This document shows positions 9,753 to 14,472 of a DNA stretch of 64,000 nucleotides, piece by piece. The position numbers and the translations under genes are program-made. The notes beneath the pieces were generated by a model. That model had not been told where the DNA came from and ran no database searches. It worked only from the letters and a program-made list of their open reading frames with translations. Origin of the DNA: Methylobacterium sp. J-026 (GTDB lineage: Bacteria > Pseudomonadota > Alphaproteobacteria > Rhizobiales > Beijerinckiaceae). The DNA lies in NCBI RefSeq assembly GCF_022829585.1, contig NZ_JAKSYC010000163.1:1-64000 (forward strand). Direction: 5' to 3'. How positions within the stretch are numbered: the first letter of the stretch is position 1; every line of letters starts with the position of its first letter.

Positions 9753-10538
9753 TCAGCGCCGCGCCGCCGCTCTGGCCCCGGCCACCAGGGGCGCCAGGAT
9801 CGCGTCCGCCGCCCGCACCACCGCCGGCCCGGCCCCGGCGGGGGTGCCGGCGTGAAACGGCGGTTCCGGTGCGTATTCGGCCACCAGCTGCGCGGTGCGG
9901 GCGTAGGTGTCCCCGCGCAGGCGGGCGGCGAGCACCAGACCGAGATCGAGCCCGGCCGAGATCCCGGCCCCGGTGACGCGGTTGCGGTCGACGACGACGC
10001 GCTCCGCCACCGGCTCGGCGCCGAGGAGCGGCAGCACCGCATCGCGCACGCACCAGTGGGAGGTGGCCCGGTAGCCGCGCAGCAGGCCGGCGGCGCCCAG
10101 GATCAGCGACCCGGTGCAGACGCTCGTCACCCAGGCGGCCCGGGCGGCGCGCCCGGTCAGGAAGGCCAGCAGCCGGTCGTTGCGCATCTGCGCCGGCGTG
10201 CCGTCGCCCCCGGGCACGAACAGGACGTCGAGATCCTGCGGGCAGGTCTCGAACGTGTCGGTCGCCATCAGCGCGAGGCCGGTATCGCTCGCCACCGGGC
10301 CGGCGGTCTCGGCGACGAGGTGCAGGCTGCCCGGGGCCAGCCCGGCGAGCAGCGCCTGCGGCCCGACGAGGTCGAGGGCGGTCAGGCCGGGATAGAGCAG
10401 CATGGCGATCCGGACCGGCCGGTCTTCCGGGATCGGGCCCGGCGTATCCGCCGCCAGCGCGAGGGGCGGCCAGAGGGCGGCGGCCGCGGCCGCGGCGGCG
10501 ACGAGGTCGCGGCGGCGCGGGCCCGGCGGTCCGGTCAC
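9753..10538 (-). CDS. Exported DJ-1/PfpI-family protein
   Basis: A 261-residue DJ-1/PfpI (class I glutamine amidotransferase-like) protein. The core runs from VRIAMLLYPGLTALDLVGP to DVLFVPGG and VTSVCTGSLILGAAGLLRGYRATSHW; Cys141 in SVCTGS is the predicted nucleophile. Relatives include isonitrile hydratases and the N-terminal domains of GlxA/FtrA regulators, but no DNA-binding domain is present. The chosen start is GTG 10538, which lies just after the tenA stop and leaves a short N-terminus with twin-arginine-like PRRRDLV followed by an alanine-rich hydrophobic segment and a likely signal-peptidase site (LALAADTPGP). Periplasmic export of a PfpI protein is notable. It follows tenA by 16 bp. 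Confidence 0.8.
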   Translation of the reverse strand: MTGPPGPRRRDLVAAAAAAAALWPPLALAADTPGPIPEDRPVRIAMLLYPGLTALDLVGPQALLAGLAPGSLHLVAETAGPVASDTGLALMATDTFETCPQDLDVLFVPGGDGTPAQMRNDRLLAFLTGRAARAAWVTSVCTGSLILGAAGLLRGYRATSHWCVRDAVLPLLGAEPVAERVVVDRNRVTGAGISAGLDLGLVLAARLRGDTYARTAQLVAEYAPEPPFHAGTPAGAGPAVVRAADAILAPLVAGARAAARR

Positions 10539-10554
10539 GGACGAGCCCGGCGCA

Positions 10555-11253
10555 TCACAGGGGCCAGGCCGCGTCGCGATAGGCGCTGTCCCAGAACATC
10601 CATTCCAGGCGGGTCGCCTGCGCGAAGGCCCGGTGCATGCGCGCCTCGATATCGGCCGAGACACCCCGTGCCGCCCGGTCGGTGGCGGCGATCATGGCGG
10701 CGACCGCCTCGGCGAACTCGGCACCCGCATAGGTGTCGATCCACGCCCGGTACGGGTTGTCGGGCGCCGCGCGGGCGAAGATGTCGTCGCCCACCGCCTT
10801 GTAGATCCAGAAGCACGGCAGCAGGGCGGCGCAGACGACCTCGAAGGGCTCGGCATAGGCCGTGGCCAGCAGGTAACAAACGTAGTGGTCGCAGGCCGGC
10901 GTCAGCGGCGTGGCCGAAAACGTCTCGGGTCCGATGCCGTAATTGCGGAAAAAGCCGCCATGGAGGGCGCGCTCCACCACGATGGCCTCCTGCGCGGCTT
11001 TGGCGAACTGCACGATCCCCTCGGGATCCGGTGCCTTCGCGGCGGCGAGGCTGAGCGCCCGGCCAAAGCCGATCAGGTAATGCGCGTCCTGCACGATGTA
11101 GTGGCGGAACCGGTCCTGACGCAGCGTGCCGGCGGCCAGTTCGGCGTTGAACGGCATCGACCGGATCGCCTCGTAGGCGGCTTCGTTGCGCGCCCATGCC
11201 GCCCGGGAGAACGATCCCGGTCCGCCCGCGCCCTGCACGTCACCTCCGGCCAT
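10555..11253 (-). CDS. tenA: TenA-family thiaminase II / aminopyrimidine aminohydrolase
   Basis: A 232-residue TenA helical-bundle protein, which salvages thiamine by hydrolysing thiamine or its degraded pyrimidines. Active-site features of the classical Cys class are present: QDAHYL (Asp56, Tyr59), ALLPCFWIY (Cys147 nucleophile, Tyr151) and a C-terminal Glu in LEWMFWDSAY. TenA belongs to the same fold as PqqC, but this protein is TenA-like. The ATG lies one base after the stop of the upstream response regulator gene, so it is translated from the same message as a two-component system. That is unusual for a thiamine gene. No thi-box riboswitch can sit in front of it given the absence of a gap. 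Confidence 0.88.
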   Translation of the reverse strand: MAGGDVQGAGGPGSFSRAAWARNEAAYEAIRSMPFNAELAAGTLRQDRFRHYIVQDAHYLIGFGRALSLAAAKAPDPEGIVQFAKAAQEAIVVERALHGGFFRNYGIGPETFSATPLTPACDHYVCYLLATAYAEPFEVVCAALLPCFWIYKAVGDDIFARAAPDNPYRAWIDTYAGAEFAEAVAAMIAATDRAARGVSADIEARMHRAFAQATRLEWMFWDSAYRDAAWPL

Positions 11254-11254
11254 G

Positions 11255-11929
11255 CTAGCCCTGCCGCTGTGCGTGGGTGACGGCGACGTGGATCAGTTCG
11301 GCCAGGGTGCGGACGCCGAGCTTCTGCCGCATCTGCGAGCAGGCATTGGTCACGGTCTTGTAGCTCACGGACAAATCGGTCGCGATGGCGCCATAGGAGC
11401 GCCCCTGGGCGAGGCGGGCGAGGATCTGCTGCTCACGCGGGGTCAGCTGCGATTCCGGGGTGCGGCGGGCATCGGCGCGCAGCATCGCCACCTCGGTGGC
11501 GAGCCGCCGGTCGAGGTAGACCTCGCCGATCCGGACCTTGCCGAACGCCTCGAACAGCTCCGCCGAGGCATGGTCCTTCAGGACGTAGCCGAGCGCCCCG
11601 GCCTCGAGGGCGCGGGCGACAATCACCGGATCGTTGTGCATGCTGAAGACCAGGATCCGCGTCTCCGGGGCGACCGCCCGGATGCGGCGGATCAGGCCGA
11701 GGCCGGCCATGCCGCTGCCCTGGAAGGTCAGGTCGCAGATCACGACCGGCGGCCGGAGCCGGTGGAAGACCCGGTAGCCACCGACCACCGTGGTCGCCTC
11801 CGCGATGGTCTCAACGCCGGCATCCTCCAGGACCCGTCGACAGCCCTGCAGGACGATCGGGTGATCGTCGATCACCAGGACGGGCAGACGGGTCGCGGCG
11901 ATGTCGATCTGGGAGGCGATGGCGTTCAT
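11255..11929 (-). CDS. NarL/LuxR-type response regulator
   Basis: A 224-residue response regulator. The receiver domain (about 16-130) has the acidic pair in VIDDHP (Asp21, Asp22), the phospho-acceptor Asp66 in VVICDL and the conserved Lys in YVLKDH. A LuxR-type helix-turn-helix follows (LTPREQQILARLAQGRSYGAIATDLSVS then KTVTNACSQMRQKLGV). It is likely a DNA-binding activator phosphorylated by the sensor kinase encoded immediately upstream; the two genes overlap by 4 bp (ATGA at 11926-11929). Targets are unknown; autoregulation and control of tenA-pfpI are plausible because they share the transcript. Confidence 0.92.
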   Translation of the reverse strand: MNAIASQIDIAATRLPVLVIDDHPIVLQGCRRVLEDAGVETIAEATTVVGGYRVFHRLRPPVVICDLTFQGSGMAGLGLIRRIRAVAPETRILVFSMHNDPVIVARALEAGALGYVLKDHASAELFEAFGKVRIGEVYLDRRLATEVAMLRADARRTPESQLTPREQQILARLAQGRSYGAIATDLSVSYKTVTNACSQMRQKLGVRTLAELIHVAVTHAQRQG

Positions 11930-13455
11930 GCGCTCGGCGCGTCGTTGTCGTCGCCCCGGTCCGGCGGAACGGGGATGGAGATGCGGACGATTGCGCCGGG
12001 ACCGGCATTGTCAAGGGTGAAGGTGCCGTCCAGCGCCTCGACGCGTTCGCGCATGCCGGACAGCCCGAGCCCGGTGCCGTGCTCGGGCGGGATGCCGGTG
12101 CCGTTGTCGCGGATCGTCACGGTCAGCCGGCCCGCGGCCTCCGCGGCCTCGGCCTCGACCCGGGTGGCGGCGCCGTGTCGCACGGCGTTGGTGGCGCTCT
12201 CCTGCACGCAGCGGAACACGGTGAGGTCCACGAGGTCGCCGTAGCCGCGCGCCAGGCCGTCGAACCGGCCGACGCACTCGAGGCCGGGATGGCGTTGCCC
12301 GAAGCCGCGCAGGAGCAGGTCGAGGCAGGTGCCCAGCGGCGCCTGCCCGAGCCCGTGCGGCCGCAGGCGGTTCAGCAATTCGCGGTTGACGGTCTGGACC
12401 TGGGCAACGATGGCGCTGATCTCGGCCGCCCGGGTCGCGAGCTTCTCGCGGCTGGGCTCGGTCGGCCCCGAAGCGATCCGTGCGATCGAGGCGGCGTTCG
12501 CCTCCAGGGCGAACAGGCAGGGGCCGAACTCGTCGTGCAGTTCGAGGGCGGTGCGGCGGCGCTCGTCGTCCTGCGCGGTGAGCAGCTGCCGGTTGAGGCG
12601 TCCGTTGGCGGCGCGCACGTCGCTCAGAGCCGCGGCCACCTTGTTGAAGCGCTCGGCGATGACCGCGAGTTCCCGGGCGCCGGGTGGCGCCAGGCGCGCG
12701 GTGTAGTCGTGGTGCTCCAGCTGCGTCAGGCCGGCCCCGAGCCGCCGCAACGGCGCCAGGATACGGCCGAGGGCGCCGTAGAGGGCGATCAGCATCGCGG
12801 CGTTGATGGCCGCGGTCGTCAGCGACAGCGCCCGGGCATAGCCCCAGATCTCGTCGATCTCGTCGAGGGGCTGCGTGGTGATCTGCGCCGTGCCGAGTTG
12901 CTGCCCGTTCACCGTGATCGGAAGGGTGTGGCGCTCGATCGGCGGCCTGATCAGGTCGGCGAACCAGCGCGGCGCCTCGCGGGTGGAGCGATGGGGCGGA
13001 GCCGAACGGCCCACGCGCTCGCCGGCATTGTCGAGAACGGCGACCCGGACGTGCCGCAGCACCTTGAAGCGCAGGTCGAGGGTCTGGAGCAGCGTCTCGG
13101 GCGGGGTCGTCTCGGACAGGCGGATCGTGTCCGCGACCAGGGACTCGACGGTCGCCAGTGAGGCCCGGGTCTCGACCCGCACCGCCGTCCGGGCGTTGAG
13201 CACGATCACGCCGCAGGAGACCAGGGCCGCCACCGCGTCGATGAGCAGGACGACGGCCACGAGCCGCGCCCGCGTCGACCACACGGCCCAGGGCCAACGT
13301 CCGGCCCGGCGGGCATCGGTTTCGGGCGCGTCCCGCATCGGGAGGTGGGTCGGTCGTGCATCCACGCCCAGATCCATAACGGGCACGCCGTCGAAGTCCA
13401 TGCGGTCGAGACCGGACGGCGGTCCGGATGACGGATTGTTAAGCAGTCCAAGCAT
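11926..13455 (-). CDS. MoxY-type membrane sensor histidine kinase (HisKA_3)
   Basis: A 509-residue sensor kinase. TM1 lies at about 64-86; the periplasmic part (about 90-205: LRFKVLRHVRVAVLDNAGER, APRWFADLI, DEIDEIW) matches the LapD/MoxY N-terminal domain; TM2 lies at about 208-230, then HAMP, then the HisKA_3 dimerisation box DDERRRTALELHDEFGP with phospho-acceptor His307, and a HATPase with CVQESATNAVRHG and DNGTGIP. MoxY is the sensor of the methanol-oxidation regulator MoxYX in Paracoccus, so an alcohol or C1 signal is possible but unproven. The start at ATG 13455 has AGGA about 6 nt upstream; later in-frame ATGs (for example MRDAPETD) would also leave TM1 intact. Confidence 0.85.
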   Translation of the reverse strand: MLGLLNNPSSGPPSGLDRMDFDGVPVMDLGVDARPTHLPMRDAPETDARRAGRWPWAVWSTRARLVAVVLLIDAVAALVSCGVIVLNARTAVRVETRASLATVESLVADTIRLSETTPPETLLQTLDLRFKVLRHVRVAVLDNAGERVGRSAPPHRSTREAPRWFADLIRPPIERHTLPITVNGQQLGTAQITTQPLDEIDEIWGYARALSLTTAAINAAMLIALYGALGRILAPLRRLGAGLTQLEHHDYTARLAPPGARELAVIAERFNKVAAALSDVRAANGRLNRQLLTAQDDERRRTALELHDEFGPCLFALEANAASIARIASGPTEPSREKLATRAAEISAIVAQVQTVNRELLNRLRPHGLGQAPLGTCLDLLLRGFGQRHPGLECVGRFDGLARGYGDLVDLTVFRCVQESATNAVRHGAATRVEAEAAEAAGRLTVTIRDNGTGIPPEHGTGLGLSGMRERVEALDGTFTLDNAGPGAIVRISIPVPPDRGDDNDAPSA

Positions 13456-13635
13456 ATCCTGTGGATAGCGGCCCCGCGAATGGGCGCGGCGACAAGTCGG
13501 ACCGACATCTTTGCGCCGTATTGCGGCTCCTCTACTGGCGGCAGAGTCGAACTGCCTCCGGATCAGCCGAGGCAGGCGACCGGTCGAGGGGAGCCCGGTC
13601 GCGCACGTCGTGCATCGTGTCAGAGCCCCCGGACC

Positions 13636-14472
13636 ATGATCGATCTCGCCCTGGACCCCTCCGAGACCCGAGAGACGCGATATCCGGTGGCCCCGCCCCG
13701 GCGTGGACGCGACCTCCGCGTGCTGCTGTTCGGGCTGGCCGGACTCGGCGTGCTCGGCGGCTTCGGGGTCGCCGCCTCGACGCTGATGGCTGGTCTCGCG
13801 GCGCCGGCTCCGGTCAAGGTCGCGACCACCGTCGCCGCTGGCGGCCGTGCCGCCGACTGGCCCGATCTGAAGGACGGGCTGCCCGCCATGGCCGGTGCCG
13901 TCGGGGCCAAGCCCGCGGACACGCAACCGGCTGCGCCGGTGGCACAGGCCCCGCGCATGGCCTCCCTGTCCGATGGATTCACCCCGGCAGCCGCGCCGAT
14001 CGCGCCGTCACCGCGCGCCAAGGCCGCGGACGTCGCCGAACTGCCGACCCGGCGGATCCCGACACCGACGCCGGTGATGCCGGTCGCGGCGAGCCGGCAG
14101 GTGGTGCCGCTTCCGCCCGCCCGCACGGCCGCGCTCCTGCCGCCCCGCCCCGCCGAGACGGTGCGGGCCCGCGCGCTGGTCGAGCCGGCCGCTCCGCCCG
14201 CGCCGAAGCCGGTCGCCGCGGCGGCACCGGCGGCAACACCTGAGAAACCGGCGAAACCGGCGCCGAAAATCGTCGCCGCCAAGCCGTCGCCGCCGGTGAA
14301 GACGGCCGAGAAGGCCAAGCGCCCCGCGCCCGCCACCGTCGCGCAGGCGGAGGCCGCCGAGCCGGAGGAGACCGAGGTGCTCGGGATCAAGCTCCCGTCC
14401 CTGGCGCCCGCCGGACGCAAGCTGAAGGAGAGCGTCGACGCCCTCGGCGAAGCGGTGAAGAGCGTCTTCTGA
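13636..14472 (+). CDS. Membrane-anchored Ala/Pro-rich protein of unknown function
   Basis: I do not recognise a family. The 278-residue protein has a basic N-terminus (PPRRGRDLR), one hydrophobic helix at about 28-52, then about 200 residues dominated by Ala, Pro and Lys (probably disordered, periplasmic). A short conserved-looking C-terminal segment follows (VLGIKLPSLAPAGRKLKESV to the end). A single anchor plus Pro-rich spacer resembles proteins that bridge inner membrane and cell wall (inference). It is transcribed divergently from the sensor kinase gene. Codon use is like the neighbours. The ATG at 13636 is preferred because the frame upstream has no sensible content. Confidence 0.6.
   Translation: MIDLALDPSETRETRYPVAPPRRGRDLRVLLFGLAGLGVLGGFGVAASTLMAGLAAPAPVKVATTVAAGGRAADWPDLKDGLPAMAGAVGAKPADTQPAAPVAQAPRMASLSDGFTPAAAPIAPSPRAKAADVAELPTRRIPTPTPVMPVAASRQVVPLPPARTAALLPPRPAETVRARALVEPAAPPAPKPVAAAAPAATPEKPAKPAPKIVAAKPSPPVKTAEKAKRPAPATVAQAEAAEPEETEVLGIKLPSLAPAGRKLKESVDALGEAVKSVF

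Follow-up and report, generated by a model that had tools for sequence, protein, structure and literature searches.

What does a sensor kinase of the MoxY type control when its gene is followed, on the same strand and almost without gaps, by genes for a thiamine-salvage-type enzyme and an exported DJ-1/PfpI protein? The question is raised by a locus of Methylobacterium sp. J-026, in the 64,000-nucleotide stretch analysed here, referred to as the window (contig NZ_JAKSYC010000163.1, positions 1 to 64,000). The locus points to a regulator relocated from an old gene cluster, not to a thiamine sensor. Specifically, we think it probable that the kinase and regulator are MxcQE, i.e., an orthologue of the MxaY-MxaB pair of methanotrophs that moved out of the methanol dehydrogenase (mxa) cluster, with tenA joined behind it and pfpI linked in fewer lineages. 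The genes concerned are:

11926..13455, minus strand: sensor histidine kinase (HK), probable MxcQ (orthologue of methanotroph MxaY), 509 aa; from Pfam, searches and trees
12844..13200, minus strand: LapD/MoxY periplasmic sensor domain, kinase residues 86-204; from Pfam PF16448
11255..11929, minus strand: NarL/LuxR-type response regulator, probable MxcE, paralogue of MxaB; from Pfam, the regulator tree and a comparison of helix alpha1
10555..11253, minus strand: tenA, thiaminase II / aminopyrimidine aminohydrolase family; from Pfam, NCBIfam, a PDB match and residues
9753..10538, minus strand: DJ-1/PfpI protein with predicted export signal, isonitrile-hydratase-like, GTG start; from Pfam, PDB 3ewn and InhA, and a twin-arginine N-terminus

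The four genes and their tight spacing, first described in an earlier note made from the sequence, are real: kinase and regulator overlap by 4 bp (ATGA), tenA starts one base past the regulator stop, and pfpI starts 16 bp past tenA. The start of the kinase is unsure, with the gene caller favouring 13401 over 13455. The Pfam architecture of the kinase is LapD_MoxY_N, HAMP, HisKA_3 and HATPase_c, i.e., the domain set of the MxaY/MoxY type; with 31.1 bits against a cut-off of 25 for LapD_MoxY_N, these domains bear out the MoxY-type sensor proposed in the note. An AlphaFold model (predicted local distance difference test, pLDDT, 77; predicted template modelling score, pTM, 0.40) shows two long helices flanking a small alpha/beta domain. 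R134, P162 and W164 are present in 68 of the 68 kinases that have the column, and E199 and W204 in 70 of 70. Published suppressor mutations reportedly hit glutamates, namely E147 in M. buryatense and E37 in Methylomonas. Positions 37, 141 and 144 of a short homologue align with E95, E199 and E202 of the window kinase.

The descent of this kinase is best seen from Methylocapsa aurea, where the homologue stands at the end of the mxa cluster, in the order mxaA-C-K-L-D-E-kinase-regulator. The M. aurea kinase finds a match in all 111 genus genomes. Each of 109 has a single match with 43-49% identity and an E-value of 1.5e-97 or better; in the other two (G012 and G849) the match is a fragment at a contig end. 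The next matches listed have E-values of 8e-34 or weaker, and the best match in the window genome is the window kinase. In the kinase tree, the genus kinases form one clade with a support of 100, inside a clade of 58 rows whose 22 other rows come from mxa (nine), xox (four) and other contexts (nine). By search and by trees, the window kinase is thus an orthologue of the mxa-cluster kinase, with relatives outside the genus that are only 31-45% identical. It does not lie inside an mxa cluster. In the window genome, kinase and mxaI are on different contigs (C2 and C116), and in all nine genus genomes that have both on one contig they are separated by 61 kb to 2.6 Mb.

Beyond the genus, an order-wide search of 397 genomes gave a kinase match at 1e-60 in 85, of which 76 are outside the genus, and 40 loci were fetched from 33 genomes; in a sample of the phylum, 31 of 398 genomes had such a match. 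With mxa and xox dehydrogenases called at more than 60% identity to probes, and counts left raw, 18 of the 40 loci adjoin methanol dehydrogenase genes. Nine pairs stand beside mxaF-J-G, with an mxaH-like gene in between in eight (L111 is without it), six beside xoxF, and three beside mxa accessory genes (L120, L135 and L145, the last with its regulator on the other strand and a kinase that is 33% identical). The neighbours in G046 were recognised by NCBIfam models over cut-off as a pyrroloquinoline quinone (PQQ) dehydrogenase, MoxJ and cytochrome cL, and a PQQ dehydrogenase of 46% identity occurs at two loci with no mxa or xox call, L123 and L128. The hint at C1/PQQ in the earlier note is supported.

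The name MxcQE comes from the TonB receptor gene. In M. aquaticum 22A, mxcQE lies behind such a gene (tonB_Ln-mxcQE); mxcQE is required for MxaF-dependent growth and the receptor gene for XoxF-dependent growth (PMC9260416; this and all other papers are cited from the parts accessible to us). In the M. nodulans-type clade, a gene for a TonB receptor of about 824 aa precedes the kinase gene in the same orientation, 136-440 bp away, at nine distinct loci (L087-L089, L090 counted with L226, L218, L220, L221, L222 and L225; L091 is cut). Since these nine loci match the order in strain 22A, we identify the pair as MxcQE, and with good confidence. Our first idea, an MxaY of Methylobacterium not yet reported, gave way to MxcQE in view of the 22A work. 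That MxaY and MxcQ sensor domains, each fused to EnvZ, gave methanol-responsive chimeras (PMC8879981) fits their belonging to one family, and the name MxcE2 given to the MxaB homologue of strain 22A (PMC5784242) implies that MxcE and MxaB are alike. In four loci of other genera (L141, L142, L144 and L239), TonB receptors of the same family (41-44% identity) lie 215-434 bp from MoxY-type kinases.

Could the pair be of the MxaY kind and related to methanol dehydrogenase, yet be a further, unnamed pair rather than MxcQE? The MxcQE identity was drawn from gene order only, and two loci (L224 and L217) do not fit it. Set against this, each genus genome has one close kinase of the MxaY kind, with further listed matches being much weaker; the TonB gene is upstream in the nine clade loci and has one match per genome in three of the four clade genomes searched (two in G036); and the name MxcE2 again implies a likeness of MxcE and MxaB. 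We consider a further pair improbable.

The regulator has the Pfam domains Response_reg and GerE, and it has a paralogue. A second regulator of the same clade follows mxaA-C-K-L-D-E-H in 19 of the 19 loci fetched, individual loci showing minor gaps or losses; we take the gene names there from the published order mxaFJGIRSACKLDEHB, and this regulator is MxaB. That order is printed in PMC7391723. One clade of the regulator tree (support 95) unites regulators of the genus: 36 that are HK-linked, 19 MxaB and five orphans. Helix alpha1 (regulator residues 23-36) was compared with the rest of the receiver domain. HK-linked regulators share it with the five orphans (96% versus 67%) and with the regulator in the mxa cluster of G046 (78% versus 43%), and MxaB also resembles the latter more in the helix than outside it (66% versus 41%). 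Among the controls, the xoxF-adjacent regulator of G046 shows no such effect (44% versus 44%) and L085 shows some (58% versus 43%); within MxaB itself the helix varies (64%). The helix comparison does not show that the kinase serves MxaB. The orphan regulators at L075-L079, in the M. nodulans-type clade, have an alpha1 nearly the same as that of the HK-linked regulator, and are perhaps the MxcE2 of PMC5784242.

In the window genome, the mxa cluster (L244, G000:C116, 3503-12862) ends at an mxaR-like gene, followed, by reading, by sugar-transport and rhamnose-type genes; mxaSACKLDEHB were not seen at this locus. MxaB seems to be absent from this genome, so that signalling by the pair would depend on its own regulator.

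Do tenA and pfpI belong to the same system? The distribution in the genus was assessed in 37 genomes, i.e., the window genome and 36 relatives. The kinase is present in 37 (cut by a contig end in one), tenA in 32 and a pfpI orthologue (at least 67% identity) in 25. The order kinase-regulator-tenA is found in 24 of the 37, which include G016, where an ORF (open reading frame) intervenes and tenA is broken, and G032, where the contig ends after tenA. All four genes are in order in 12 of the 37, pfpI adjoining tenA in these 12 of its 25 genomes. A named collection of the best 80 loci (79 from Methylobacterium, Methylorubrum and close metagenome-assembled genomes, one from Methylocapsa), which overlaps the genus set, gave a similar picture. 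Among the 79 listed loci, the regulator is within 200 bp of the kinase in 78, tenA lies up to 900 bp behind the regulator in 44 (distances being approximate, from BLAST ends), pfpI is present in 25, and the four-gene order in 25. The kinase-regulator pair is the constant part, while tenA and pfpI come and go. The arrangement is hence not unique to this strain; it recurs in the genus. TenA or PfpI homologues (E-value 1e-8) were found beside none of the 40 outgroup kinases, up to about 7 kb away and with some loci cut by contig ends.

Where tenA is elsewhere (8 of the 32 genomes), the pair is still next to the divergent gene in eight of eight, and next to a helicase-like gene (by reading) in four. 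In the five genus genomes without tenA, neither neighbour was seen by the pair. At the window locus, this neighbour, which stands where the M. nodulans-type clade has the TonB gene, and the space before it are:

13456..13635, no strand: intergenic region between the divergent genes, presumably with both promoters; from position
13636..14472, plus strand: divergent gene for an Ala/Pro-rich, probably membrane-anchored protein, a frequent kinase neighbour (adjoining the kinase in 70 of the 79 listed named loci)

The product of this gene has no Pfam match. A block, GCCGCAATACGGCG, conserved in the clade of the window, lies about 108 bp before the divergent gene; it was dropped as a candidate kinase operator because its spacing is constant relative to the divergent gene but not relative to the kinase.

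These distributions bear on the idea, put forward in the earlier note, that the kinase senses a periplasmic thiamine fragment, an isonitrile or a similar compound, which TenA and PfpI then process in one four-gene pathway. The recurrence of the four-gene order (12 of 37 genomes, 25 of 79 listed loci), the retention of catalytic residues in both enzymes, and a tenA tree that is compatible with one joining event and long retention would all suit such a pathway. But the kinase is in every genus genome examined and the two enzymes are not, the pair stays in place when tenA leaves, and the related kinases of other genera have neither enzyme beside them. Moreover, export is predicted for PfpI and no export signal was seen in TenA, which would place them in different compartments. 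The data do not support sensing of thiamine or isonitriles, and we regard the four-gene pathway as very improbable. No riboswitch was found here: Rfam gave no match at gathering threshold at the window locus or in five related loci, while the same genome has two thiamine pyrophosphate (TPP) riboswitches, before a thiC-like gene and before thiO-S-G-E-like genes (named by reading the sequences).

For both enzymes, the family given in the note is supported. The tenA product matches TENA_THI-4 in Pfam and, as best PDB match, TenA (1tyh); with NCBIfam TIGR04306 it scores 125.9 bits, below the cut-off of 130. Its Asp56, Tyr59, Cys147, Tyr175 and Glu217 align with TenA residues that we take to be catalytic, and all five are kept in the 44 rows that have the columns, the window included (one further row is gapped). 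The pfpI product matches DJ-1_PfpI, and its closest PDB match is 3ewn, a ThiJ/PfpI family entry, with InhA next. Its Cys141, Thr142 and Asp56 align with InhA residues, presumably the catalytic Cys101, Thr102 and Asp17 of isonitrile hydratase. The Cys motif is present in 23 of 25 operon orthologues, the other two being fragments, and a twin-arginine pair before a hydrophobic stretch in 24 of 25 by eye (19 by a stricter scripted motif), in agreement with a Cys-containing PfpI whose export is predicted.

It could also be that tenA and pfpI are pure passengers with promoters of their own, their adjacency having no regulatory meaning. The distance between regulator and tenA exceeds 60 bp in 12 of the 44 named loci, reaching 721 bp, and both genes occur elsewhere in other species. 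Against this stand the 1-bp gap here, the distance of at most 60 bp in the other 32 loci, and an adjacency that is kept in 24 of 32 genomes. Variability at fourfold sites, which a buried tenA promoter might lower, was not reduced where the regulator gene ends (last 28 codons, 0.26; other parts, 0.13-0.28; 19 sequences), which is a weak test. On balance, we find pure passengers rather unlikely. In the tenA tree, 30 close orthologues form one clade (support 96), 24 of them linked to the pair and six behind an aldose-epimerase-like gene. At four loci of one clade (L041, L043, L046 and L049), tenA overlaps the aldose-epimerase-like gene by 4 bp, with formamidase-/amidase-like genes upstream (by reading). 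The broken tenA that follows the pair in G016 (locus L060) is split in two, and an ORF on the opposite strand adjoins it.

Several observations weigh against the descent of the pair from MxaY-MxaB or its identity with MxcQE. In 22 of the 40 outgroup loci there is no mxa or xox gene at more than 60% identity in the stretch examined, and two of the six xox loci (L112 and L133) fall in a more distant kinase clade. Seven of the 37 genus genomes are without mxaI and keep the kinase; mxaFI therefore cannot be its sole target. Both trees are quick trees with long-branch warnings, HK-linked regulators as a group have a support of only 66, and alpha1 is not specially kept between them and MxaB (63% versus 59%). 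The window strain has mxaF-J-G-I and the mxaR-like gene, then unrelated genes; a regulator search found no second MxaB-like regulator in its genome at 1e-40, and a search for mxaL gave only a weak match (35% over 129 residues). The identification as MxcQE used gene order and trees, not an MxcQ sequence; at L224 (M. aquaticum DSM 16371) the TonB gene lies on the opposite strand 3 kb downstream, and at L217 (M. crusticola) there is none in the 5 kb upstream of the kinase. From the literature, M. buryatense has MxaY yet no MxcQE homologues (PMC6115532), deletion of the regulator gene beside its mxaY left the switch unaltered (PMC5018670), and Methylobacterium suppressor mutations were reported in mxbD (PMC7356819, PMC7391723).

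With these points counted, relocation of an MxaY-MxaB orthologue is still the reading we prefer. The ancestor would have had the kinase-regulator pair inside the mxa cluster, in the order mxa...DEH-Y-B. A duplication of the regulator gene may then have taken place in the lineage of Methylobacterium; one copy, MxaB, would have stayed in the cluster without a kinase, and the other, MxcE, would have left it together with the kinase. Later, tenA would have joined behind the moved pair, possibly once, with pfpI linked in fewer lineages. The periplasmic MoxY domain may read a state related to methanol, methanol dehydrogenase or lanthanides, upon which the kinase would phosphorylate MxcE and thereby control dehydrogenase genes. 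We infer that TenA and PfpI come from read-through along one shared message; their level would follow expression of the regulator, but they would not be its signal pathway. More tentatively, and with less than even confidence, we propose that MxcQ, as a displaced MxaY, phosphorylates both MxcE and the orphan MxaB, that the lanthanide switches of Methylobacterium and methanotrophs go back to one mxaY-mxaB pair, and that Methylobacterium has coupled TenA to the expression of this switch, along with an exported isonitrile-hydratase-like enzyme in some lineages.

If MxcQ is an MxaY orthologue, one kinase family would explain the switch in both groups, findings could be transferred between them, and orphan MxaB would gain one testable candidate kinase. 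The link to tenA raises the question of why a thiamine-salvage enzyme is made with a methanol regulator. M. extorquens MxaB has been called an orphan regulator, with MxcQE and MxaY treated as different systems (PMC5018670, PMC6115532, PMC9291206, PMC11845868). An equation of MxcQ with MxaY was not found in the accessible parts of PMC5784242, PMC5018670, PMC11845868, PMC6115532, PMC7391723, PMC9291206, PMC7356819, PMC9260416, PMC5874918 and PMC8879981, which is no proof of absence, older and subscription papers being outside this scope. TenA was not found in the accessible part of PMC7391723, the one paper checked for it. Literature searches gave no work combining thiaminase or TenA with Methylobacterium, joining TenA with isonitrile hydratase, or joining isonitrile hydratase with DJ-1 and InhA, which likewise is no proof of absence.

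How does the locus compare with known systems? Isonitrile hydratase InhA is an enzyme from Pseudomonas. Its alignment with the window PfpI spans about 205 residues and retains Cys, Thr and Asp; unlike InhA, the window protein has a twin-arginine N-terminus, and it is nearer to 3ewn. TenA (thiaminase II) of B. subtilis is of the same family as the window TenA and has the same five catalytic residues, whereas tenA in the window lies in a regulator operon with no riboswitch found nearby. MxaB, the orphan regulator of the Methylobacterium mxa cluster, shares a clade with the window regulator at 43-62% identity; none of the 19 loci fetched for MxaB has a kinase next to it. MxcQE of M. organophilum XX, M. 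extorquens AM1 and M. aquaticum 22A is likewise a Methylobacterium sensor kinase with its regulator, and its place behind the TonB gene is matched by orthologues in the nine M. nodulans-type loci. The window pair, likened to it by gene order and trees, is instead followed by tenA and pfpI and has the divergent gene in the TonB place. Finally, MxaY-MxaB of alphaproteobacterial methanotrophs (e.g., Msil_0484-0485) is the pair from which we would derive that of the window: kinase and regulator are 45% and 57% identical to those of Methylocapsa aurea, and the genus pair differs in standing outside the mxa cluster.

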